From the IMG/VR virus record IMGVR_UViG_3300028920_000022, positions 186,001 to 250,000 of that record: a DNA stretch of 64,000 bases; one strand, written 5' to 3'. The notes beneath the pieces were generated by a model. That model was not told the origin of the DNA and searched no databases. It saw only the letters and a list, made by a program, of their open reading frames with translations. Below, piece by piece: positions 7,261 through 47,522 of the stretch (position 1 is the stretch's first letter; the number at the start of each line of letters is the position of its first letter). Both the position numbers and the translations under genes were made by a program. Origin of the DNA: a virus.

Positions 7261-7427
7261 TCAAAAAGAAAAGGCTCCCATGGGGCAGTAAGCCATGTTG
7301 TAGTCAGCCTACTCCGGAGTATCATTATTCTTGGAAGGACGAAACTGGGTTATGTGCCAAATGTGGCAAAAGACTTAGGTTTGGTAGCCGGTTATATTGG
7401 GAACGTATTCGAAAGCATAAAACATGA
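7257..7427 (+). CDS. Small zinc-binding protein (56 aa)
   Basis: A 56-residue frame starting MIKKKRLPWG, with CC at residues 14-15 and CAKC at 33-36, and a basic C-terminus (RLYWERIRKHKT). It is joined to the IF-3 gene by an ATGA overlap and to the deformylase gene by another, so it is translated between two translation-factor genes. Basic plus zinc suggests RNA or DNA binding; function unknown. Confidence 0.6.
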   Translation: MIKKKRLPWGSKPCCSQPTPEYHYSWKDETGLCAKCGKRLRFGSRLYWERIRKHKT

Positions 7428-7939
7428 TTTTAACTGATGAAGTTGCTCTACGGATAAAATGTGAAGACGTATTACCGGATGAGATTGGTTCTATACGTGA
7501 AGCCTTAGAGTCCGAATTACAACATTCTGCAGAGCTTGGCAGTCCGGGCGTGGGTTTAGCGGCACCACAGATCGGAATTGCTAAAAAGATGGCGATTGTA
7601 CGTCATGGAGATTTTAATATAGATCTAGTTAACTGTAAGGTGTTGAAAGGATTTGATAAAACAATTTTTGATGGCGAAGGGTGTTTATCTTTTCCTGGCA
7701 AATTTGTTAAAACTAATAGATATCAAGAGCTGCATGTTGTTGAAAACCTTATAGAACCTTATAATTTTATTGCGAGAGGTTTTTTAGCAGTAGTAACTGC
7801 TCATGAAATTGATCATTTATTTGGGGTTCTACTTCCAGATGTAGAAATAAAAGAAAAGATTAATAAAAAACGCAAGTTAAGACCTAATGATTTGTGTTTT
7901 TGTGGTTCCGGTAAAAAATATAAAAAATGTTGTATGTAG
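7424..7939 (+). CDS. def: Peptide deformylase with C-terminal SEC-C zinc motif
   Basis: 171 residues. All three deformylase motifs are present: GVGLAAPQ (42-49), EGCLS (85-89) and HEIDH (127-131), giving the metal ligands Cys and two His and the catalytic Glu. The enzyme removes the formyl group from the starting Met of nascent proteins at the ribosome exit. Residues 152-171 add a SEC-C motif (RPNDLCFCGSGKKYKKCC), a zinc knuckle best known from the tail of SecA, which is not part of a normal deformylase. It overlaps the small gene upstream by four bases and lies directly behind infC. Confidence 0.95.
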   Translation: MILTDEVALRIKCEDVLPDEIGSIREALESELQHSAELGSPGVGLAAPQIGIAKKMAIVRHGDFNIDLVNCKVLKGFDKTIFDGEGCLSFPGKFVKTNRYQELHVVENLIEPYNFIARGFLAVVTAHEIDHLFGVLLPDVEIKEKINKKRKLRPNDLCFCGSGKKYKKCCM

Positions 7940-15027: not shown

Positions 15028-15218
15028 ACGCTAAACTAACTACCGCCTTTTGTGTTCGAAGTATGGTCTTCGATTCTAAAAATGGTGCAGACTTAGCCAA
15101 TGATTTGTTTTACAAGGGCACAGAAACAATTAGAAAAATAATTGCTGTAGAATATAACAATAGAATCTTTTGTACAAATCCCTTGATTTTAGTGGGAGAC
15201 GAAGATGGAACGCAGTAA
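15021..15218 (+). CDS. Hypothetical protein
   Basis: 65 residues, no family recognised. It starts inside the last codons of the SbcC-like gene and its end overlaps the bL12 start, so it is embedded in a translationally coupled string. Confidence 0.55.
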   Translation: MVNAKLTTAFCVRSMVFDSKNGADLANDLFYKGTETIRKIIAVEYNNRIFCTNPLILVGDEDGTQ

Positions 15219-15567
15219 AGTAGTAGAATATTTGAGCAATCTAACTGTTACCGAGATTTTGTCTCTAACCAAAGAGTTAGAAGAAAAATGGCAAGTTTCT
15301 AGCGCTCCTGTTTTTGATACTGGACCCAAAATAACTGAAGAAGTTGTAGAAGAGAAAACTGAGTTTGATGTTGTTCTTACCAGCTTCAATGATAAGAAAA
15401 TAACTGTGGTAAAAGAAGTACGTGCCATTACTGGTTTAGGGTTAAAAGAAGCCAAGGAACTAACCGAAAGTGCTCCTTGTAATATTCGTGAAGCCGTCAG
15501 TAAAGAAGACGCGGATGAGTTGGTGAAACGATTGGTTGATGCAGGTGCATCGATGGAGTTGAAATGA
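15205..15567 (+). CDS. rplL: Ribosomal protein bL12 (L7/L12)
   Basis: 120 residues, close to bacterial bL12 (about 120-125). N-terminal dimerisation helices (SNLTVTEILSLTKELEEKW) are followed by a hinge (SSAPVFDTGPKITEE) that is less Ala-rich than in bacteria. The C-terminal domain is typical: FDVVL, KKITVVKEVRAITGLGLKEAKELTES and ADELVKRLVDAGASMELK. The C-terminal domain of bL12 recruits IF2, EF-Tu, EF-G and release factors to the ribosome. Phage-encoded copies of bL12 are known; they could exchange onto the host stalk. Confidence 0.95.
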   Translation: MERSKVVEYLSNLTVTEILSLTKELEEKWQVSSAPVFDTGPKITEEVVEEKTEFDVVLTSFNDKKITVVKEVRAITGLGLKEAKELTESAPCNIREAVSKEDADELVKRLVDAGASMELK

Positions 15568-16726: not shown

Positions 16727-17710
16727 ATGGCGGTTATAAGTATAACAGTTACCGAATCCCCAATTCAAAAAGTGGAAGGCATACCCGCTACTATTGAATT
16801 ATCTACCAACATACCCGCTACCATATTTTACACTTTGGATGGAACAGATCCCACCACATCTTCAGATATCTACGTTTCTGCTATAACAATGCCCGCTTGG
16901 GGAGCTGTTACGTTGAAAGTGTTTGCTACAGACGGTGTAAGTAGTTCATCTATTCTAACAGAAGAATATGGGGCAAACATGACCACTAACCGGGTACCCC
17001 ATGCTAAGGTTACTTTAACAAATACAGGATATGCTGGAGAAGATTTGTTTCCGTTTGGAGATGTTGCTCCCACGCAGCCGGTGCAATATGGCGCTTTGGG
17101 TGGGGTAGACGTTGATGATCCTAATACTACAGGATATTCAGCGGGATATGATGGAACTGCTACGGGAACATCTGCAGCAGAAACGGATGAAGAATATAAT
17201 CTCACTAATTATGAAATTAAATATTCTGATAGAGATCGGCTAGGACAATACGAAGCTATTGGTACGTTGCCGGCTACCGTTTCTATTGTGGTACCCCCAG
17301 CACCACCAGAGCAAAGTGATGCTAACAGCAAAATGTTTGACCCTAGGGCATTGGTTATTGTTCAAGATGGCAGAGAACCACCAGAAGATCCAAACATTTC
17401 CCATATAAATAAACAATTTTTTTCGCTAACCAACAATGAAAGATCAAAAGATGGAGCTTATTATAGAACTACAGCTTTTGAAGGAGCTGTTCCTACCGGT
17501 TCTCTTGTAAAGTATTATTATAATCCAAGAGAAGATATTTATACATTTTATTATCGCGATGCCGATTCTAATAGATGGATTATTTCTAAGGAACCAAGAA
17601 CTGCATCTACAAGTCGTTCCATATCACAAATTGCTTTTCCATCGTCGAGTGGCAGAGCGGGTCCTAAAGTATTTCAGTGGATACCATTTAAACGGTCCAG
17701 ACTGATTTAA
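16727..17710 (+). CDS. Probable virion or surface protein with chitobiase-like C-terminal-type domain
   Basis: 327 residues. The first ~85 residues match the beta-sandwich found at the C-terminus of chitobiases (IPATIFYTLDGTDPTTSSD, then VTLKVFATDG), a carbohydrate- or wall-associated module. The rest is Thr/Gly/Pro-rich with beta-type sequence. No catalytic site is visible. It probably belongs to the particle or to surface binding, although it lies among nucleotide and DNA genes rather than in the morphogenesis block. Confidence 0.6.
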   Translation: MAVISITVTESPIQKVEGIPATIELSTNIPATIFYTLDGTDPTTSSDIYVSAITMPAWGAVTLKVFATDGVSSSSILTEEYGANMTTNRVPHAKVTLTNTGYAGEDLFPFGDVAPTQPVQYGALGGVDVDDPNTTGYSAGYDGTATGTSAAETDEEYNLTNYEIKYSDRDRLGQYEAIGTLPATVSIVVPPAPPEQSDANSKMFDPRALVIVQDGREPPEDPNISHINKQFFSLTNNERSKDGAYYRTTAFEGAVPTGSLVKYYYNPREDIYTFYYRDADSNRWIISKEPRTASTSRSISQIAFPSSSGRAGPKVFQWIPFKRSRLI

Positions 17711-17712
17711 AC

Positions 17713-18513
17713 ATGCCCCATAAAAAAGAATCTGACTTATTTCATTTATCGGTCAGCAAAGTTAAGACGTTTTTAACGTGTAAAGCTAAGTATCGATACC
17801 AATACATCGAACATTTGCCAAAGATAGAACGAGATTTCCAGGTTTTTGGCAGTTTTTTACATGAAGCACTTGAAGAATTTCAATCTTCTATTATAGGTGG
17901 GGTCGAAGCACCAGACCATATAAGAATGAAACTTGCTTTTTCCAAAGCTATGAAAGGTGATTGGGGACCAAAACTTACTCCAGAACAAAAACAAGAATGT
18001 ATCGATGTATTAAAAGAATATTTGGTTTTTAGATATAATAATCGAAATGCTCCTTCAGAAGTTTTGGAAGTAGAAAAACCGTTTTCTTTTGATTTAGACG
18101 GTAAGGTTCTTTTAAATGGGTTTATAGATGTAGTACAAAGAGATGCTGACGGAATAATACATGTTGCTGATTATAAGAGTAGTAAAGAAAAGAAGTACTT
18201 GAAAAAGGACTTATTACAATTAAAAACCTATGCCTTGGCGTTGATGTATAATGATTCTGATATAGATAAGATTCGTTGTTCTTATGTGATGTTGCGTCAT
18301 AAGTTTGATCCTATTCAAAAAGAGTTTGAGCGTTCTGAAATAATGCCGGTAGCTGATGAGTTTCTTGAATATGCTGAAAATATAAACGCCGAGAAGCTTT
18401 ATCGACCATCTACAGGACCTTTGTGTAAGTTTTGTGACTATTTGGGTAAATGTTCCGAGGGCAAAAAATATATCCTCAAAGGTGATGATTCGTTTGGAAT
18501 AACAGATTGGTAA
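17713..18513 (+). CDS. Cas4/RecB-like PD-(D/E)XK nuclease with Fe-S cysteines
   Basis: 266 residues. LSVSKVKTFLTCKAKYRY at the N-terminus carries the first cluster Cys, GSFLHEALE gives the His, then GFIDVVQ (Asp), VADYKSS (DxK) and the QLKTYALAL helix. C-terminal CKFCDYLGKC supplies three more cysteines. This is the pattern of iron-sulfur RecB-family nucleases (Cas4, AddB C-terminus). It would process single-stranded ends in recombination; no cas genes are nearby. Confidence 0.88.
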   Translation: MPHKKESDLFHLSVSKVKTFLTCKAKYRYQYIEHLPKIERDFQVFGSFLHEALEEFQSSIIGGVEAPDHIRMKLAFSKAMKGDWGPKLTPEQKQECIDVLKEYLVFRYNNRNAPSEVLEVEKPFSFDLDGKVLLNGFIDVVQRDADGIIHVADYKSSKEKKYLKKDLLQLKTYALALMYNDSDIDKIRCSYVMLRHKFDPIQKEFERSEIMPVADEFLEYAENINAEKLYRPSTGPLCKFCDYLGKCSEGKKYILKGDDSFGITDW

Positions 18514-18519
18514 GAAAAA

Positions 18520-19746
18520 ATGTCTGAAATGCAAATTGAAACTGAAGAACTTGAGTTTTGTAAAATTAAAGTTAACTATACCGCAGACACGGATGTGGTT
18601 ATTGGTAAACAGCAGGAGGCAGTAAAGCAGCTGCGAAAATTGCCGGTTCCTGGTTTTAGACCGGGAAAGGCTACCGATACTGCGATTAAAATTCGTTATA
18701 AGGATAAGATTAAGGACTGGGTTTCTAAGGAAATGTTGCAGCAGGCAAATGATGATATCTTATTCGAAACTAAAATGCGCCCAATAGGCGATCATCAAGT
18801 TCAAGATCTAAAATTGAAAGATAATGAGTTTAGTTGTGAGCTGGTTTATTTAAAGAAACCTGATTTTGAACTAGGTAAATATCAAGAGCTTGAGATTCCT
18901 GAGCCGCATTTAGAAACCACCGTTGACGATTTACGCGAACAAATGTTGCAAAAACTTCGTGAACAACACGGTTCGTTGCGCCCGTATGAGGAAAATGATT
19001 TTGTTCAGGCGGGAGATGCTATAACTTTAGATTATGCAATATATGAAAATGATGCGAGCGGTAAAGTTTTGAAAGAAGAAACTGGGGCTGTGTATAATGT
19101 TGGCAGCAATGCTTTGCCAGGTGGTTTCGATGATAATCTCGTAGGAATGACCGCAGGTGAGAAAAGGGAATTTCCGTTGATGGGAAATGCGTTTGCTGTA
19201 GTAACCATGCATGCCGGATCTAAAAAGGAACCGTGCCCGCTAGATGATGAATTAGCTAAGAAACTTGGGGTGGAAAGTTTTGAAAAGGTTCGTTCAGAGG
19301 TTAATGCATCTGCCGAAAGACAGTTAAAAGGTCAGCGAGACCAGATGATTAGTGTGCAAATAAAGAATCAGCTAGTTAACAGTCATGATTTTGAAGTCCC
19401 ACCATGGTTATTAAGCATGGAAGCCCAGCAAATAGCTATGCAGGAAGGTGTAAAGTGGGAAGGTTTGGAAGAAGAAGCAAAAGAAAAGTTTCTTAAAAGG
19501 GCAAAAGATCAGATTAAATTTACACTAATAATGGATTCTATTACGTTGGCAGAACCTGAAATTCAGTTATCCGATGAGGAAGCTATACAATTGGTAGATA
19601 AGCGGCTTCAGATGATGGGCGTTCCTAATACACGCCAATTCATTGTCGAGTCGTCTCAGAATGGACGACTAGCTTCTTTAGTGGCTAATTTACGTAATGA
19701 TTATGCTATGCAGTGGCTAGTAGATCATGCAAAAATTGTGGAATAA
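18520..19746 (+). CDS. tig: Trigger factor (ribosome-associated chaperone)
   Basis: 408 residues, slightly shorter than the bacterial protein (about 430). The N-terminal domain contains the ribosome-binding signature PGFRPGKA (residues 44-51, corresponding to GFRxGK, which contacts uL23 at the tunnel exit). Residues about 160-240 form the FKBP-like prolyl-isomerase domain (GDAITLDYAIY, ALPGGFDDNLVGM, GEKREFPL). The rest is the helical chaperone body (VRSEVNASAERQLKGQRDQM). Trigger factor cradles nascent chains. Its presence in a phage, with deformylase, bL12 and IF-3, implies control of protein maturation on the host ribosome. Confidence 0.95.
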   Translation: MSEMQIETEELEFCKIKVNYTADTDVVIGKQQEAVKQLRKLPVPGFRPGKATDTAIKIRYKDKIKDWVSKEMLQQANDDILFETKMRPIGDHQVQDLKLKDNEFSCELVYLKKPDFELGKYQELEIPEPHLETTVDDLREQMLQKLREQHGSLRPYEENDFVQAGDAITLDYAIYENDASGKVLKEETGAVYNVGSNALPGGFDDNLVGMTAGEKREFPLMGNAFAVVTMHAGSKKEPCPLDDELAKKLGVESFEKVRSEVNASAERQLKGQRDQMISVQIKNQLVNSHDFEVPPWLLSMEAQQIAMQEGVKWEGLEEEAKEKFLKRAKDQIKFTLIMDSITLAEPEIQLSDEEAIQLVDKRLQMMGVPNTRQFIVESSQNGRLASLVANLRNDYAMQWLVDHAKIVE

Positions 19747-21163: not shown

Positions 21164-23830
21164 ATGGACTATGTAAGCCTTCATAATCATACCACATTTT
21201 CGATTATGGATAGCTTGATTAAGCCTTCAGAGCTTTTCAAGCGTGCGAAAGAGTTAGGACAACCCGCAATTGCCGTAACCGATCATGGTACGTGTGCAGG
21301 TTTGTGGGATTGTCTAAAGCTATCTCGCAGTACCGGTGTAAAACTGATCGCCGGGTGTGAGATGTATTTTGTAGATGATGTAAAAGATACTGATGCCAGA
21401 TTACGACATATTGTACTTTTAGCCAAGAACGCAGAGGGTTATAAGAATTTATTAACCTTGGTTAAAGCAGGTTTCGATAATAACATCATAGCAATGCAAA
21501 AAGTTTTTCCCCGCGTTGATTGGGAAATATTGGAAAAATATAGCTCAGGTTTAATTTGTACTACTGCGTGTGGAAATGGGATTATTTCACAGCTTTTAAA
21601 TGACAAAAAGTTTGATGAAGCCAAGGCACAAGCCAAACGATTGGTAGATATTTTTGGAGACGATTTAGCTATTGAGCTTCAGCCACACGCAATGCGTCGC
21701 AAGGCTAACTTATATGGCAACGAAATAGATCAGACATTTACAAATCGTCAATTAAAGAAATTAGCAGACGAGTTAGGGATCAAATGTATTGTTGCCACAG
21801 ATGCGCATTATGTCAGACCAGAGCAACACAAGGCTCACGATGTAATGTTGGCGATTGGGTCTAGGCAGCCTATTTCTTCTGGTGCCAGGCTTAAGTATAA
21901 CGTTCCAGATTTCTATATAAAGTCTGACGAAGAGATTCTGAGTAAGCTAAAGCGAGCTTTTGGTGAGGAGTTTGCCAAGGAGTGTATAGAAAATACCATT
22001 TATTTTTCTGATAAGTGTGAGTTTCCTGATTGGATTGATCCAAAATATTCCAACCCCAGCGGTAAGGAGTTGCCCGAATTCCCTGTAAAGGATCAAAAAG
22101 ATTATGGCGAATTTAAAGAGTGGTTGGAAAAGAATCCATTGGACGGTTTGGAAGAAGATAAGGCGTATTTGCGTTATAGGTGTGACAAAGCTGTAAATGA
22201 AAGGGTGCCTGCAGAGAAACAAGCGATTTATCGTGAAAGGTTAGAAACAGAATTTGAAGTAATAGAGTACCAGGGCTTTTCTTCATACATGCTCATTGTT
22301 TCTGATTATTTAGAGTTTTGTAGAAATAATAATATTAGGCTCGGTCCCGGTCGCGGTTCTTGTGGTGGCTGCATGATTGCGTATTTAATAGATATACACG
22401 TAGCTGATCCTTTAAAATATGGACTTATTTTTGAGAGGTTTCATAATAAAGAGAAGTCGGCGCCTGATATAGACTCAGACGTATGTCCGTCACAAAGACC
22501 AATGTTGCATGAGTACATTCGTAATAAATACGGAGAGGATCATGTAGCGCACGTCTCTAATGTAAACACATTAACGCCTAAACCGTATGTTAAAGCTATA
22601 GCGCGCACTTTTGAATATGGCGGAGATCGCAAAACAGCTGTTGCTATTGGTGCCGCCATAGCTGACGCTATACCTGCCGATATAAAAACTATAAAGTCTG
22701 CTTTGGAAAAAGCCCCATTGTTTGCCGAATATGCGAAACGATATCCTGAATTGGTAGAATTTGGTGATGATATTTGTGGCAAAGCTGTAGCTTGGTCTAC
22801 CCACGCTGGTGGTTTAGTTATTTGTGCCCGATCTTTGGTGGGACTTATTCCACTACGACGAGACAAGGAAGGGTCTGTTTCTATTGAGTATGAAAAAGAG
22901 CGTGCTGAGGAAAATGGTTTGTTAAAGATGGACACTTTGGCAATTGAAACATTGCACGATATTGATAACACATATGCTCTAATTAAAAAGGCGGGCAAAG
23001 AGTTGCCACCAGATCCACCAAATTATGATGAATGTGATGTTGCCACATATGATATGATTAGTAATGGTGACACTTTTGGTGTATTTCAGCTAGGAACCAG
23101 TGGTGGTACTATAGATTTGTGTAGAAAAGTTAAGCCTAAGAATCTTGATGATCTGGCGGTAATTAATAGTTTAGCTAGACCTTCCGCTAGGGACATTCGA
23201 AAAGATTATATACAAACCAAGAATGGCGATAAGCCGGTCGAAATAATCCACCCATCTTTGGAGCGCGCATTTAGACCAACATTGGGTTTTGGTTTATATG
23301 AGGAATGTTTAATGTTCTTGGCTCAAGACGTTGCCGGTTGGTCAATGTTGGAAGCGGATCGTTTGCGTAAGTTAACCAAAGCTAAAGGTAAATATCCAGA
23401 GAAGGTAAAGAAGTGGGAAGAAGATTTTATTCAGGGATCTATAGATAGCGGAGTTGGTAAAAAATTTGGCAAAAAGATTTGGAGTGAGGTGATAGAAAAG
23501 TTCGGTGGCTATGGGTTCAATCGGAGTTTGTACTTTTTGGAAACTGTTGATATATTCTCTAGTGCTGGGAAGTATCTTTATAAAAAACCAATACAGGATA
23601 TTCAACCTGGAGAATTCGTCCGATCAAGGGATGAAGAAACTGGTGAGGACATTTACATCGAAGTAATTGGAAATTATGATCACGGTAAATTAGAAGTTGT
23701 AGAAGTAGAATTAAACACCGGAGAAAAGGTTAAATGTACGCTGGATCATAAGTTTAGGGTACAGGAAACTGGCGAGATGCTTCCATTATGGAAAATTTTA
23801 GAAGATGGATTATCAATAGTGGTAGGATAA
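21164..23830 (+). CDS. dnaE: DNA polymerase III alpha, N-terminal part fused to N-intein
   Basis: 888 residues. Residues 1-787 are DnaE: PHP domain (SLHNHTTFS, VTDHGTC), the GPGRGSCGG palm region, the catalytic PDIDSD (434-439) and up to GGYGFNR. Residues 788-888 are an intein N-half: Ser1-LYFLETVDI, IQDIQPGEFV, and block B CTLDHKF with EMLPLWKIL. The gene then stops. The C-half is encoded at 25000-26322, and protein splicing in trans should rebuild a polymerase of about 1180 residues. It is the replicative polymerase candidate of this phage. Confidence 0.95.
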   Translation: MDYVSLHNHTTFSIMDSLIKPSELFKRAKELGQPAIAVTDHGTCAGLWDCLKLSRSTGVKLIAGCEMYFVDDVKDTDARLRHIVLLAKNAEGYKNLLTLVKAGFDNNIIAMQKVFPRVDWEILEKYSSGLICTTACGNGIISQLLNDKKFDEAKAQAKRLVDIFGDDLAIELQPHAMRRKANLYGNEIDQTFTNRQLKKLADELGIKCIVATDAHYVRPEQHKAHDVMLAIGSRQPISSGARLKYNVPDFYIKSDEEILSKLKRAFGEEFAKECIENTIYFSDKCEFPDWIDPKYSNPSGKELPEFPVKDQKDYGEFKEWLEKNPLDGLEEDKAYLRYRCDKAVNERVPAEKQAIYRERLETEFEVIEYQGFSSYMLIVSDYLEFCRNNNIRLGPGRGSCGGCMIAYLIDIHVADPLKYGLIFERFHNKEKSAPDIDSDVCPSQRPMLHEYIRNKYGEDHVAHVSNVNTLTPKPYVKAIARTFEYGGDRKTAVAIGAAIADAIPADIKTIKSALEKAPLFAEYAKRYPELVEFGDDICGKAVAWSTHAGGLVICARSLVGLIPLRRDKEGSVSIEYEKERAEENGLLKMDTLAIETLHDIDNTYALIKKAGKELPPDPPNYDECDVATYDMISNGDTFGVFQLGTSGGTIDLCRKVKPKNLDDLAVINSLARPSARDIRKDYIQTKNGDKPVEIIHPSLERAFRPTLGFGLYEECLMFLAQDVAGWSMLEADRLRKLTKAKGKYPEKVKKWEEDFIQGSIDSGVGKKFGKKIWSEVIEKFGGYGFNRSLYFLETVDIFSSAGKYLYKKPIQDIQPGEFVRSRDEETGEDIYIEVIGNYDHGKLEVVEVELNTGEKVKCTLDHKFRVQETGEMLPLWKILEDGLSIVVG
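23525..23827 (+). other. Split-intein N-half coding segment (IntN)
   Basis: 101 codons beginning with AGT (Ser1) right after the GYGFNR codons. The segment carries intein block A, a TxxH block B (CTLDHKF) and the end of the N-splicing domain. Ser1 instead of the more common Cys1 implies an ester rather than thioester first step. The insertion point is inside the conserved DnaE motif GYGFN-K/R-SHA. Confidence 0.85.
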
Positions 23831-23831
23831 T

Positions 23832-25031
23832 ATGGCAGGATATACTCTAGAACAATATTTAGAAAGAATACCTGAAAAATACAGGAACAAAGTTAAATTA
23901 ATAAATAAATTTCAAGGTAAGAGAACAAAAGTATTATTTACAAATGAAGTATGTGGGTGTGAAAGAGAGTATTTTTTGGGCGTGTTGGTGTTGCGTAAGA
24001 CGTTTGATGTATGTAAACATTGCAGATCACAATATGTAAGTAAAAAATATTTTTGTAAAAGGTGTGGCAAAGGGTTTATTACTGAGGAGTGGTTTCTACA
24101 ACATGATAAGAAATGTCTTGCTAAATTTAAAAATTTAATTGAGGGCGAAGATTATGTTACCTGTTACATTTGTGGTTTTCAGGCTTTAAGTCTAGGTTTG
24201 CATCTTCGTGTAAAACATGGGATTGATCCCGAGGAATATAAAAAAGATCATCAGATAATTTGTAGGAAATCTTCCGATATCTATGCTAAACAGAACTTAG
24301 AGAACTCAGAAGTTTTTCGTAGTTGGATAAAAGAAAGAGGACCTGAAGCCCAAGAATATTTAAATAAAAGGGGAAAAGAACTTAGTAAATCGATCATGTC
24401 TAACCCCGAGGAGCGAAAACGTCGTTCCAAAGCCATGGCTATACTGGATCGAACTGAGTATATGAGAAAAAAGGCATCAGAAACTGCTATTAAAACTTCG
24501 GCACGTAAGGACATACAGGAGAAGCGGGCTGCACAATTGAAACGATGGAGAGATAATAATCCTGAGATTTTTTATGAAAAATGTGTTAGTAAAATGCTAA
24601 ATACTTGGCATAGTAAGCCTGAAACTATACTATTTGAAGCGGTTTTAAATTACAATGATTATGTATTTAAGCGTAATCAAATAGTTAAATCTGAAATATT
24701 TCCAACTAAATCTAAACGAAAACAAATAGACATTGGAGACAAATCAAAAAGAGTATATATTGAATTTGATGGACAATTACATTTTAAAGAAACACAATTA
24801 AAACAGCTTGAACGTGTTCAATTAAAAGATGGCTTACTGGATAAACATATTATTAAACATGGTTGGACATTAATACGTGTTTCTTATGATCAATTTTCGT
24901 ATCGTAAACGAGATTTTGGGTTTAAAAAAGAATGTTTGGAAAAAGTATTCGAGATTTTAGATAATCCAACCCCGGGAGTACACACTATCGGGGAGGCGTA
25001 TGACGCTAAAAAAGAGACAAACAATGACTAA
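23832..25031 (+). CDS. Free-standing homing endonuclease, zinc fingers plus Vsr-like domain
   Basis: 399 residues, placed exactly between the two halves of dnaE. Several zinc-type cysteine pairs occur in the first half (CKHC, CKRC...C, CYIC with HLRVKH). A basic middle follows with repeated NUMOD-like helices (SNPEERKRRSKAMA, KASETAIKTS). The C-terminal nuclease-like domain resembles Vsr/EDxHD enzymes: KQIDIGD, VYIEFDGQLHFKE, HGWTLIRVSYDQF. By analogy with described fractured genes it would cut intein-free dnaE alleles and spread the locus. It overlaps the downstream C-intein gene by 32 bases. Confidence 0.85.
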   Translation: MAGYTLEQYLERIPEKYRNKVKLINKFQGKRTKVLFTNEVCGCEREYFLGVLVLRKTFDVCKHCRSQYVSKKYFCKRCGKGFITEEWFLQHDKKCLAKFKNLIEGEDYVTCYICGFQALSLGLHLRVKHGIDPEEYKKDHQIICRKSSDIYAKQNLENSEVFRSWIKERGPEAQEYLNKRGKELSKSIMSNPEERKRRSKAMAILDRTEYMRKKASETAIKTSARKDIQEKRAAQLKRWRDNNPEIFYEKCVSKMLNTWHSKPETILFEAVLNYNDYVFKRNQIVKSEIFPTKSKRKQIDIGDKSKRVYIEFDGQLHFKETQLKQLERVQLKDGLLDKHIIKHGWTLIRVSYDQFSYRKRDFGFKKECLEKVFEILDNPTPGVHTIGEAYDAKKETNND

Positions 25032-26322
25032 CATTAAATCTGTTCGTTCCATTGGTAAGGTTCAAACATATGATTTGGAGGTTGATCATCCGGATCATCA
25101 ATACTATTTGTCTAGTGGCATGCTCACCAGCAACAGTCACGCCACTTTCTACTCTATGGTTGGATATCATACCGCTTATCTCAAAGCCCATTATCCGTTG
25201 GAATTTTTGGTTGCTATTTTAATGAATAAAGTCAATTCTAACTCACCATCCGCAAAAGATAGCATAGCCAAAATTAAAGAAGAAATAAGAGCACTAAATG
25301 TTAATATTCTACCGCCAAACATAAACACATCAGAATTAACCTATTCAATTATTGATGATAAAACTTTGCTTACAGGCTTTGATGCTCTTAAAGATATGGG
25401 TAAGAACGCTATCCCCGAGATCTTAGCTAAACGTCCGTTTGATAGCTTTGAAGATTTCTTGCTCAAAACTGATGGTCAGAAAGTTACCGCCCCTGCCATC
25501 AAAGCCCTCGCCGCTAGTGGTAGCCTGGATTCATTCGGTTTAACTAGAAAACAAATGTATTTGTATGCTTCTGATATAAAAAAGAAAATACAAGTTCATT
25601 TAAAGAATAAAAGAGAAGGTGAGTTTAAATATCCTTGGCCGGCAGATATAGAGGAATGGACAATTCCTGAATTATACGCCATGGAACGTGAATATTTGGG
25701 AGAAGGTATCAGCGGAGATAGATTCCAAGTATATGGCGGATTTTTTACCAAGAAAGCTCCCAGTTTCAAAAAACTTCCTAAACTGCACCCTCCTCCACCA
25801 GATGATATGACGGAAAAAGAACAACGTAAATATACCAAACATATTACAATGTTGCAGGCGGAAGTAAAGAGTTTCTTTGAATTTAAGGTAAAAAAAGAAG
25901 ATAGTAAGATATTTGGCGAAGTAATGGCTAAAGTTGCCCTTTGTGATCCTTGGGGCAACCAAATGACTATGACTTGTTTCCCCGAGGGTTGGTTACATTT
26001 ACAAAACCGTGTTTCGGAACTATTGAATAATAAACACAAATTCGATACAGGGCTTGGTTTGTATATAAATGGCGAACTAAATTGGTACGATGGTGATATA
26101 TCATTAATATTTGGGGACGTAGCTCGTTGTTGTCCTGCTCCTCAGATGCCATCCGATAGAGATAATAAGAAGGTTACTATTCGTAGGTCCAAGAAGAAAA
26201 ACCCCAAACAAGAAGAGCCAGAGAGAGACATTCTATTGGAAGAAATAGAAGATGATTTGGTAGATCGTGGTTATTCCGATTTGGATGATGAAGATGACGA
26301 TGTACAGGACGGTTTTGTTTAA
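25000..26322 (+). CDS. dnaE: C-intein fused to DNA polymerase III alpha, C-terminal part
   Basis: 440 residues. Residues 1-45 are the intein C-half: VQTYDLEVDHPDHQYYLSSG (block F) and MLTSN (block G, final Asn). Residue 46 is Ser+1 of the extein, SHATFYSMVGYHTAYLKAHYP, which continues the DnaE motif broken upstream. The rest covers the C-terminal DnaE region (helix-hairpin-helix and beyond) with an acidic end. The start may be ATG 25000 or ATG 25024 (MTNIKSV, similar in length to known DnaE IntC pieces). Confidence 0.95.
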   Translation: MTLKKRQTMTNIKSVRSIGKVQTYDLEVDHPDHQYYLSSGMLTSNSHATFYSMVGYHTAYLKAHYPLEFLVAILMNKVNSNSPSAKDSIAKIKEEIRALNVNILPPNINTSELTYSIIDDKTLLTGFDALKDMGKNAIPEILAKRPFDSFEDFLLKTDGQKVTAPAIKALAASGSLDSFGLTRKQMYLYASDIKKKIQVHLKNKREGEFKYPWPADIEEWTIPELYAMEREYLGEGISGDRFQVYGGFFTKKAPSFKKLPKLHPPPPDDMTEKEQRKYTKHITMLQAEVKSFFEFKVKKEDSKIFGEVMAKVALCDPWGNQMTMTCFPEGWLHLQNRVSELLNNKHKFDTGLGLYINGELNWYDGDISLIFGDVARCCPAPQMPSDRDNKKVTIRRSKKKNPKQEEPERDILLEEIEDDLVDRGYSDLDDEDDDVQDGFV

Positions 26323-43838: not shown

Positions 43839-45656
43839 ATGACACAACAAATTTTTGAGAAGTTTAAACTGGGTCTAAAGAATTTGGATCCAGTTTATTT
43901 TTGTGAGTCTAATCTTATTTTAGACGGAAAGCCCTTTCGAATAAATGGAAACGGGTATAAGCCTTATGCGGATATTTATCGTTATATAGGAATTAAAGCG
44001 TTAGAAGAAGATTCTAAACCCGTGGTTTTGGTGAAGGGACGTCAGGTAGGAGCCACTACCATGGCAGCCAACCTGGAGATGTATTTTATGACGTCCGGGT
44101 TGTTTGGCAATAATGGGCGCCCACCAATACGTGTATTGCATTGTTTTCCCACTTTAGTACACGTATATGAATATGCAAAAACTAAATTAAGAGCCACCAT
44201 TTCACAATCTAAACTAATAGACGATCCTAAAAAGCCGAACAAGAAAATACCTTTTGTTGAGTCATGCATAGATAAATCTTCAGATGCCAGCAACTCTTTG
44301 CAGTTTAAACAATTTATTGATGGTAATTTTTTAAGAGTAGAATCAACCGGTTTGGATGCTGACCGTTTGCGCGGTGGTACGGCTGATGTAATTTTATACG
44401 ATGAGGTTCAGGATATTTTCAAAGAAGCTATTTCAAACGCCAACAAACTGTTATCTCAGGCAAAATATGGAAATGGCGGAGTAAAAGTTTATTTTGGAAC
44501 TCCTAAACAAAGGGGAGGACATTACTGGGACATGTGGCAGATGTCCAACCAACAGTATTATCATCTGGGTTGTGAAGAATGTAAGAAACTATTTCCTCTT
44601 TATACTCCAGGCAGTGATGAGTGGAAAAAGATTTGGTTATACGGTTTTACAGTGAAATGTCCACATTGTGGGTGTGAACAAGACAAACGCGATGCCGCAG
44701 AACGCGGCATGTGGGTTCCAATGCGCCCAGAGAACGATAAGTATGTTGGGTACCATATTAATCAAATGTACATGCCTAACTACACCAAAGAGAAAATTCT
44801 CGATGAGCGTCCAGAAGTCAACCCATCGATGACGGAAAGAGGTTATCAGAATGAAGTTTTGGGGGAGTTTTTTCGTGGTGAAGCGTCACCAATCACACCC
44901 GAGGAAATCAAGGAAAAGTGTGCCGATCCGGACAGGGGCATGTCTGAGGGAATTTCTATTAACGAAAATAAAAAAGTATATGTTGGCTTTGACTGGGGCG
45001 GTAAAGATTTTGTGGATGGCGAAAGAAAGACTCAGGGACAATCATACAGTTCTGCGGTGGTTTTAACTGAAGAAGGACCAAACCGGTTGTCTATAAAGTT
45101 TGCCAACCTTTTGAAACGCAACGATATAGAGACGAAAAAAGATATTGTTAATGAGATTTATAGGCGTTATAGTGTCACTTTAGGAATTGGCGATATTGGT
45201 TTTGCTAATGATTTGTCCGAGATACTATATCGGGAACATGGTCATCGATTTTTAGCTAGCAGATCGTCTCCAAACGTTTCTGGTAGAATAAAATTTGATG
45301 AATCTTATATGCCGCCCACTATTGTGTTTGAAAAAGATTATTATATTGGTGAGCTATTTAATATGATGAAGCGAGGAATGATCAGGTTTCCATTTAAAAG
45401 TTATGAAAAAATAATTTGGTTAGTTAATCATTGTTCTAGCATGGAAATTAAAACAACTTCCAATGTTTATGGTGAAGCGATATATAGATTTGTTAAGGGA
45501 ACTACACCTAACGATGGACTGATGGCATTATTAAACGCATATTTAGCTTATAAATTTGATGTTAGCGGTGGTTTTAGTAATAAAATGGCAGGTCTTATGG
45601 ATAAACCTGGACCTAAGAAAATTTCTGCGGTCCTTGGTTATATTCCTAGAATGTAG
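43839..45656 (+). CDS. terL: Terminase large subunit
   Basis: 605 residues. ATPase part: Walker A KGRQVGATT (66-74) and Walker B VILYDEVQD (Asp188-Glu189). A zinc-ribbon-like insertion follows (CEECKKLF, CPHCGCEQ), then the RNase H-like nuclease with VGFDWGGKD, GIGDIGFAND and NDGLMALLNAYLA. It powers DNA packaging through the portal and cuts the concatemer. The zinc insertion recalls GpA-type terminases. Followed after 15 bases by the portal gene. Confidence 0.93.
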   Translation: MTQQIFEKFKLGLKNLDPVYFCESNLILDGKPFRINGNGYKPYADIYRYIGIKALEEDSKPVVLVKGRQVGATTMAANLEMYFMTSGLFGNNGRPPIRVLHCFPTLVHVYEYAKTKLRATISQSKLIDDPKKPNKKIPFVESCIDKSSDASNSLQFKQFIDGNFLRVESTGLDADRLRGGTADVILYDEVQDIFKEAISNANKLLSQAKYGNGGVKVYFGTPKQRGGHYWDMWQMSNQQYYHLGCEECKKLFPLYTPGSDEWKKIWLYGFTVKCPHCGCEQDKRDAAERGMWVPMRPENDKYVGYHINQMYMPNYTKEKILDERPEVNPSMTERGYQNEVLGEFFRGEASPITPEEIKEKCADPDRGMSEGISINENKKVYVGFDWGGKDFVDGERKTQGQSYSSAVVLTEEGPNRLSIKFANLLKRNDIETKKDIVNEIYRRYSVTLGIGDIGFANDLSEILYREHGHRFLASRSSPNVSGRIKFDESYMPPTIVFEKDYYIGELFNMMKRGMIRFPFKSYEKIIWLVNHCSSMEIKTTSNVYGEAIYRFVKGTTPNDGLMALLNAYLAYKFDVSGGFSNKMAGLMDKPGPKKISAVLGYIPRM

Positions 45657-45671
45657 CCCAAAAGGAAATGA

Positions 45672-47522
45672 ATGAACGTTCAGCAGCCACAATTCCAGGA
45701 AACTGCCCCTCCAGTTATTACCAATTATATGATAAAATCTGTGTCTCAGCATAGACGTTCTGAGCTAGAAGAAGAGACATATGCTGGAAAATATAGGCAA
45801 CCTGGCGGCGCGCATTTTGCTGTTAACACTACTCATTTGGGTAACGTTACTTTCACTTCTGCTAATAAAATGCGCAAATACGGAGCTACTGCTTTTAGCA
45901 CCGGTACTAGTTCTGGCTCATCTGTTGGTTCTGGTTGGCGTGGCGGTGGTGGAACGGTTCGACAAGTTCCTGAGGTTTATTCTCCTTTATGGTTAAACTC
46001 TAACCTTAATCTTCCGCGAGATCGAGCTACCATCAACGCTTGGTGTCGCTCATTTTATGCTCTTAATCCAATTGTTCAAAATGCTATTTTCTTACATTCT
46101 ACGTATCCTATTTCTAAATTAAACATTAAATGTAAGAACCCAGAAGTTCATCAGTTCTTCCAGAACATGATTGAAGAAATTAGTCTTACAGATGTTTGTG
46201 TCCAAATAGCTCAAGAATATTGGACACTTGGAGAAGCATTTGTATATGCTGAGTTAGATGAAAGCACAGCTAAGTGGAGTCGGATACAGATACAGAATCC
46301 CGACTATATTTCTGTGAAGCGTTCGGTAATTGCTGGAGAGCCAATAATCAGTTTGCGACCTGATGAAAACCTTAGGCGCATTTGTACATCTAATCTTCGT
46401 TCCGATATAGAGCAAAGACAACAAATAGATCCTAGTATTATTGAATATGTGCGCCGAGGCGAAAACATACCAATGGATAATTTTTATGTTTCTCATATTG
46501 CGCGTAAGATTAGTCCTTATGAGATTCGTGGAACCGGGCTTCCAGTTAGTTGTTTTCGCCAGCTGATGTTATTTGACAAGTTACGTGAAAGCAAGTTTGC
46601 CCAAGCGGATAATATGATTAATCCGTTAGCTCTTATTACCATTGGTGGTGGCGGAGACAACTATAAGCCTACTCCTGAAGATTTGAATCAGTGGCGCGAA
46701 CTATTTGAAGAAGCCCAATATGATAAAGATTTCAAGGTTTTTGCGCATGACGGCGTTAAGATTGAATATATTAGTAAGGGCGGTGGCATTTATGATATTT
46801 CCGGAGATATTACACAATTACTGAAGGAAATTTATATTGGATTATTGGTACCACAGGTAATCATGGATGGTGGTGCGGATGTGACTTATGCCAATGGTGG
46901 GGTGGCGTTGGATGTATTGCGTCAGCGTTACATGCAGTTTAGGAATATGTTAACCCAGTGGTTGCGTCGAAAGATTTTTGCTCCTATTTCTCGTTTGAAT
47001 GGGTTTTATGAATATGAGAACAATAAAAAAGTTCTTATAGTTCCAGACGTGGAATGGAATCACATGTCGTTGTTTGACATGGGAGATTATATTGCCAATT
47101 TAACACAACTGTTGTCATCGCAACCAAAGAATGTTTCGTTACAAACTGTATATCGATCATTAGGTCTGGAATTTGAAGAGGAAATGCGTCAGATTCGTCG
47201 TGAAAACGTTGAGCAGATTATTCAAATGAAGGAAATGGAAGCATTACAGCGCATGTCTTTGAATGATTTGCGTTCTATTGGCGATGATGATGAGATTCAA
47301 GAAGTTCAAGAAAGTCCATTACCAGGAGAAAGTGCTTATGATGCAGCCCAGCAGAATATGGCTCCTGGCGGTTTAGGCGGTATGGAAATGGGAATGGGCG
47401 GCGGACTTGGCGGAATGGGAGGCGGTTTAGGCGGAATGGGTATGCCTCCGATGGGCGGAGCCCCTCAGATGGGCGGAGCCCCCGCAGGTGGTCCTCCGAT
47501 GGGCGGAGCACCTCCGATCTAA
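45672..47522 (+). CDS. Portal protein
   Basis: 616 residues. A central region typical of phage portals: INAWCRSFYALNPIVQNAI, then a wing with NPDYISV, the GLPVSCFRQLMLFDKLRESK segment, and the long helix VALDVLRQRYMQFRNML. The last ~60 residues are Gly/Met/Pro-rich imperfect repeats (GGLGGM, MGGAP), unusual for a portal and probably flexible. Its place right after the terminase supports the call. Confidence 0.85.
   Translation: MNVQQPQFQETAPPVITNYMIKSVSQHRRSELEEETYAGKYRQPGGAHFAVNTTHLGNVTFTSANKMRKYGATAFSTGTSSGSSVGSGWRGGGGTVRQVPEVYSPLWLNSNLNLPRDRATINAWCRSFYALNPIVQNAIFLHSTYPISKLNIKCKNPEVHQFFQNMIEEISLTDVCVQIAQEYWTLGEAFVYAELDESTAKWSRIQIQNPDYISVKRSVIAGEPIISLRPDENLRRICTSNLRSDIEQRQQIDPSIIEYVRRGENIPMDNFYVSHIARKISPYEIRGTGLPVSCFRQLMLFDKLRESKFAQADNMINPLALITIGGGGDNYKPTPEDLNQWRELFEEAQYDKDFKVFAHDGVKIEYISKGGGIYDISGDITQLLKEIYIGLLVPQVIMDGGADVTYANGGVALDVLRQRYMQFRNMLTQWLRRKIFAPISRLNGFYEYENNKKVLIVPDVEWNHMSLFDMGDYIANLTQLLSSQPKNVSLQTVYRSLGLEFEEEMRQIRRENVEQIIQMKEMEALQRMSLNDLRSIGDDDEIQEVQESPLPGESAYDAAQQNMAPGGLGGMEMGMGGGLGGMGGGLGGMGMPPMGGAPQMGGAPAGGPPMGGAPPI

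Follow-up and report, generated by a model that had tools for sequence, protein, structure and literature searches.

A diverged trigger factor with a fixed place in the replication genes of a jumbo-phage lineage that also encodes other nascent-chain processing factors

The presence of what looks like a complete trigger factor (TF) gene in viral DNA raises the question of whether the gene is truly a trigger factor, whether it belongs to the virus, and what it may do there. We addressed this in a stretch of 64,000 nucleotides (hereafter, the window), which corresponds to positions 186001-250000 of a virus record of 458,729 bases. The gene lies at 18520..19746 on the plus strand, starts with ATG, is a single gene in frame, and encodes 408 amino acids. 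The genes of the terminase large subunit (43839-45656) and of the portal protein (45672-47522) are on the same strand in the same window. Elsewhere, the record carries 15 tRNA genes, and a search of its 458,729 bases for GroEL found none.

The assignment to the TF family is consistent across methods. The NCBIfam equivalog TIGR00115 ('tig') matches the protein with 187.2 bits (cut-off 180.2), from position 2 to 410 of the 410 in the profile. An orthologue with 75% identity to it scores slightly under the same cut-off (172.8 bits), and all 30 of the 30 phage orthologues that we aligned match the profile at E <= 0.001. The Pfam profiles Trigger_N (74.8 bits), FKBP_C (23.4 bits, for a cut-off of 21.1), and Trigger_C (50.4 bits) each exceed their curated cut-offs, and every one of the nearest solved proteins found by sequence comparison is a trigger factor. 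An AlphaFold model, built with only the window protein and its viral orthologues as input, has a mean pLDDT of 89.2. The predicted structure aligns end to end with the TF of Escherichia coli (1w26; Z 20.8, 387 residues) and similarly well with that of Thermotoga (3gty; Z 20.4). The whole-chain rmsd to the solved proteins is high (8-9 Å), as would be expected because the domains are hinged. Profiles and predicted model together confirm the open reading frame as a full-length trigger factor.

The N-terminal, ribosome-binding domain covers residues 4-118 (18529..18873, plus strand, as are the other domains), as matched by VIA-align to the N domain of the E. coli TF (1oms_B), on which the predicted model superposes with Z 13.3 and an rmsd of 2.2 Å over 114 residues. 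It includes the ribosome-contact signature GFRPGK at residues 45-50 (18652..18669), which is near-invariant in 62 phage orthologues: the first glycine is conserved in 100% of them, the phenylalanine in 93%, the arginine in 100%, the second glycine in 98%, and the lysine in 95%. In the alignment, these columns correspond to G43, F44, R45, G47, and K48 of the E. coli protein, whose loop touches uL23 at the tunnel exit and loses normal binding when F44-R45-K46 is mutated. The C-terminal chaperone domain (residues 238-408; 19231..19743) is recognised by Trigger_C and by structural matches to 2nsa, 1zxj, and 7zgi; one stretch of it is shorter in the window protein than in bacterial TFs.

The middle domain, of the FKBP-type peptidyl-prolyl isomerase (PPIase) fold, is the most altered. 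It spans residues 157-237 (18988..19230), which FKBP folds match in the model with Z ~10. Mapping of residues in an alignment of distant sequences indicates that the flap is short in the window protein and its close relatives. The equivalent of Tyr221 is missing from the window protein and from nearly all members of the clade, in 61% of which the position is a glycine. The equivalent of Phe198 is retained, and the column of Phe185 is mostly glutamate, in a region where the alignment is uncertain. The most divergent phage TFs, described below, still have the flap and the tyrosine, and the aligned bacterial TFs are also variable at the pocket positions. The window protein lacks an intact PPIase catalytic pocket, a feature that we did not treat as defining a trigger factor. 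We infer from these residues that the isomerase activity of the phage protein is weak or nil. In E. coli the chaperone function of TF does not need the isomerase activity, so the loss of the pocket need not impair the function of the phage TF. The preliminary description, which had proposed a full-length TF with the GFRxGK signature, is borne out by these data, whereas its claim of three TF domains needs a nuance: all three are present above the Pfam cut-offs, but the PPIase domain is degraded by the short flap and the lost Tyr221 equivalent.

Does the gene belong to the phage? It is tightly embedded in a replication block that reads SbcD, SbcC, in some cases a dNMP kinase, a CHB-domain protein, a PDDEXK nuclease, TF, two small genes, DnaE, and a RecA-like protein. 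The PDDEXK (RecB/Cas4-like) exonuclease lies immediately 5' of TF (17713..18513, plus strand; PF12705, 105.5 bits) and its stop is followed by 6 nt, the TF gene, 3 nt, and the start of a gene resembling nucleoside deoxyribosyltransferases. The DNA polymerase III alpha subunit DnaE lies 3' (21164..26322, plus strand; PF07733 and PF17657) and appears split in this genome. Its N-terminal part ends in what resembles the N half of an intein, an endonuclease-like gene follows at 23832-25031, and the open reading frame at 25000-26322 begins like the C half of an intein and continues with the remainder of DnaE. From its sequence, this arrangement resembles a split intein accompanied by a homing endonuclease encoded as a gene of its own. 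A protein with a CHB_HEX_C_1/Fn3-associated domain (16727-17710) also has a fixed slot among the replication genes in nearly all relatives, which is an odd location for such a domain.

Two profile scans of IMG/VR revealed TF orthologues in 64 other loci, some of them near-duplicates; their identity with the protein of the window is 28-75%. They are full length almost throughout. Wherever flanking sequence is available, the gene has the PDDEXK nuclease on one side and DnaE on the other: the nuclease is upstream in all loci that extend that far, and DnaE is downstream in 64/64 loci. The same order is kept in four much more divergent viral loci (L070, L071, L075, and L084; 20-24% identity). Comparison with the 75% orthologue gave a dN of 0.18 with saturated dS, which indicates purifying selection. 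Among the matches listed in a scan of GTDB genomes, bacterial TFs have at most 28% identity to the window protein. The phage protein shares with bacterial Tig (1w26, 3gty) the order of N, PPIase, and C domains, the GFRxGK loop, and the full-length fold match, whereas it differs by its low identity (20-28%) and separate clade, by its shortened flap and lost Tyr221 equivalent, and by its location inside a phage replication block without clpP or clpX as neighbours.

We inferred phylogenies of TF with bacterial sampling that did not include Bacteroidota. A tree of 70 sequences unites the 23 main phage TFs (SH-aLRT 100), and the four deep TFs join this group (95). In a tree of 47 sequences, support is 100/100 for the main phage clade, 99/97 for the deep clade, and 56/93 for their union. 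No bacterial group nests with the phage TF clade in either of these trees sampled without Bacteroidota. The main clade is thus firmly established as a viral lineage, and the synteny favours a single acquisition as the likely origin of the main and deep clades. The gene is best read as part of the core of one lineage of jumbo phages, long present there and passed on vertically.

Matches in other collections have a different character. A tblastn search of 50,697 GenBank phage records resulted in 24 matches (21-29% identity), of which we inspected eleven. Nine of these have clpP and/or clpX beside tig, which is the bacterial arrangement, another is annotated as a tig-clpP-clpX run, and the last (L012) has neither gene within 5 kb. 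None of the eleven GenBank/INPHARED matches was counted as a phage TF. The ten records (L004-L011, L013, and L014; MT835xxx-MT839xxx, OR844993, and CAKLQH020000005), labelled as phages in GenBank, carry tig-clpP-clpX regions of the bacterial kind and probably represent contigs of hosts. We also set aside as bacterial a number of IMG/VR matches (L072-L074, L076-L079, L081-L083, and L085): clpP/clpX adjoin TF in L073, L076, and L083, and the others lack the phage synteny. The view that a complete TF is rare in phages therefore needs to be divided: no convincing case was found among the eleven GenBank matches inspected, but in IMG/VR the gene is conserved in one jumbo-phage lineage. The profile search and tree that had been suggested for finding the donor produced 64 loci and a phage-only clade, but did not point to a donor phylum.

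The best clue to the function of TF comes from the genes that accompany it: those of peptide deformylase (PDF), methionine aminopeptidase, bS21, and bL12, none of which figured in the preliminary description. The PDF gene (7424..7939, plus strand) encodes a deformylase domain (PF01327, 81.6 bits for a cut-off of 22.8) with the three catalytic motifs intact (GVGLAAPQ, EGCLS, and HEIDH), followed by a C-terminal SEC-C zinc motif (PF02810, 35 bits); it scores 76 bits with the NCBIfam profile TIGR00079, under the cut-off of 103.95. The ribosomal protein bL12 (L7/L12) is encoded at 15205..15567 on the plus strand (TIGR00855, 132.1 bits for a cut-off of 84.4) and is clearly present in only a few TF-bearing relatives. 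Two further genes lie outside the window: bS21 (positions 180474-180827 of the record; L024:474-827) and a type I methionine aminopeptidase (356708-357553 of the record; TIGR00500, 180.8 bits for a cut-off of 171.35), the latter ~150 kb away from TF. The phage bS21 has a long basic extension past its S21 domain.

We counted these partners in TF-bearing records only. PDF is present in 41 and bS21 in 39 of 48 such virus records, and the absences are mainly in short fragments. When only TF-bearing records with a length of 300 kb or more are considered, PDF is found in 16/16, bS21 in 16/16, and the aminopeptidase in 15/16, a set that includes the record of the window and in which two records (G034 and G045) look like one phage. 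It may simply be that many very large phages have these three genes. In all 37 records where this could be measured, PDF is encoded upstream of TF and in the same orientation (median distance 9.7 kb), and bS21 lies upstream in all 36 (median 13.5 kb); the order bS21-PDF-TF is found in all measurable records. A cysteine-rich, SEC-C-like tail of PDF is visible by eye in 16 of 20 relatives, 8 of which match the strict motif. The same motif ends SecA, as its C-terminal metal-binding domain, and there it binds 70S ribosomes (PMC6620043), whereas in the phage it forms one chain with a peptide deformylase and ribosome binding by the tail is putative. By analogy with SecA, the tail may serve PDF as a ribosome anchor. 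No PDF-SEC-C fusion was found described in the literature searched. An intein seems to interrupt the PDF gene of one relative (L204; G003:4000-6500), an open reading frame of ~490-540 amino acids ending in ...HNFFANNTLVHNC.

Discussions of how phages take over translation usually centre on initiation (bS21, S1) and tRNAs. The main texts of three studies of huge phages report genes of bS21, L7/L12, PDF, IF1/IF3, and EF-Tu/G (Al-Shayeb 2020, PMC7162821; Mizuno 2019, PMC6375957; Chen 2022, PMC9723584). Of these, bS21, bL12, and PDF are also found here, and the idea of redirecting the ribosome is the same, whereas the present lineage has TF as a conserved core gene, alongside PDF and methionine aminopeptidase; searches of the three main texts gave no mention of trigger factor. 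A survey of Southern Ocean viral proteins reported no TF analogue (PMC8407431), and our literature searches turned up no report of a gene named as a phage trigger factor. The TF of the window matches phrog_26774, which is of unknown function in PHROGs, with 81.9 bits. We rejected this as a phage TF family because bacterial TFs score higher with it (257-455 bits) than phage TFs (only 82-207), which makes it in effect a bacterial-type profile. The viral structures of BFVD include no match to the TF model at E <= 0.001. The gene would extend the known phage takeover of translation, and the only TF profile in PHROGs is of the bacterial type.

In bacteria, TF, PDF, and methionine aminopeptidase all act near the ribosome exit. 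We consider it probable that the phage TF is an ancient core chaperone and works as part of a phage set of factors that process nascent chains at this site. The protein would dock on the host ribosome beside the tunnel exit by its N domain and GFRPGK loop, and its C-terminal cradle would hold the emerging chains. Its action as a holdase/foldase would be independent of ATP, and its prolyl-isomerase activity weak or absent. Phage PDF and methionine aminopeptidase would process the N termini of the chains while TF shields or folds them, so that the phage would supply the three factors acting in turn at the exit (deformylate, cut the methionine, and fold), next to bS21 and, in this genome, bL12. 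The output of phage proteins would presumably benefit from this set. A more far-reaching version is possible, although we put it forward tentatively: the lineage would carry a complete exit-site line, made of the SEC-C-tailed PDF, the type I methionine aminopeptidase, and the non-isomerase TF, which together with bS21 would specialise host ribosomes, with the SEC-C tail as the ribosome anchor of PDF.

Other roles were weighed against this one. The phage TF might mainly block the exit site at uL23 against host TF and SRP, rather than fold phage proteins, such that exclusion from the exit would stop host protein handling or secretion. The ribosome-contact loop is indeed the best conserved part of the protein, while the PPIase pocket and a stretch of the C domain of the window protein are shortened relative to bacterial TFs, and a gene among replication genes is probably expressed early. 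Yet, the protein retains a C-terminal chaperone domain that matches the fold well and that a pure blocker would not need, and the orthologues are nearly all full length, so we regard this role as unlikely. It is more doubtful still that TF is a dedicated chaperone working off the ribosome, for instance on large virion proteins or on a DnaE/SbcCD replication complex. The fixed slot between the PDDEXK nuclease and DnaE could mean that TF has clients other than nascent chains in general, and there are open reading frames of 1130-1135 amino acids near the portal gene of the window; but such a role does not lead one to expect the strong retention of the ribosome loop, and the PDF and aminopeptidase genes found alongside TF speak for a role at the ribosome. 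A purely virion-folding role is slightly disfavoured because the gene lies among replication, not virion, genes. Finally, recent capture from a host or contamination of the contig, which the near-universality of TF in bacteria and the bacterial look of the GenBank matches might suggest and which the preliminary description had named as what would undo it, is already refuted at this locus by synteny and tree (no clpP/clpX beside this TF or its orthologues, terminase and portal within the window, 64 syntenic viral loci, bacterial identity of at most 28% among the matches listed, and a phage-only clade).

If the role as exit-site chaperone is true, a phage TF whose position has been fixed over large divergence, together with PDF and aminopeptidase, would extend the takeover of translation to the nascent chain. 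These proteins are also a natural set of strongly diverged TFs, in which the loop and the cradle are kept and the isomerase pocket is lost, and they ask which parts of a trigger factor are essential. The phage TF would then be a testable case of a virus that specialises ribosomes.
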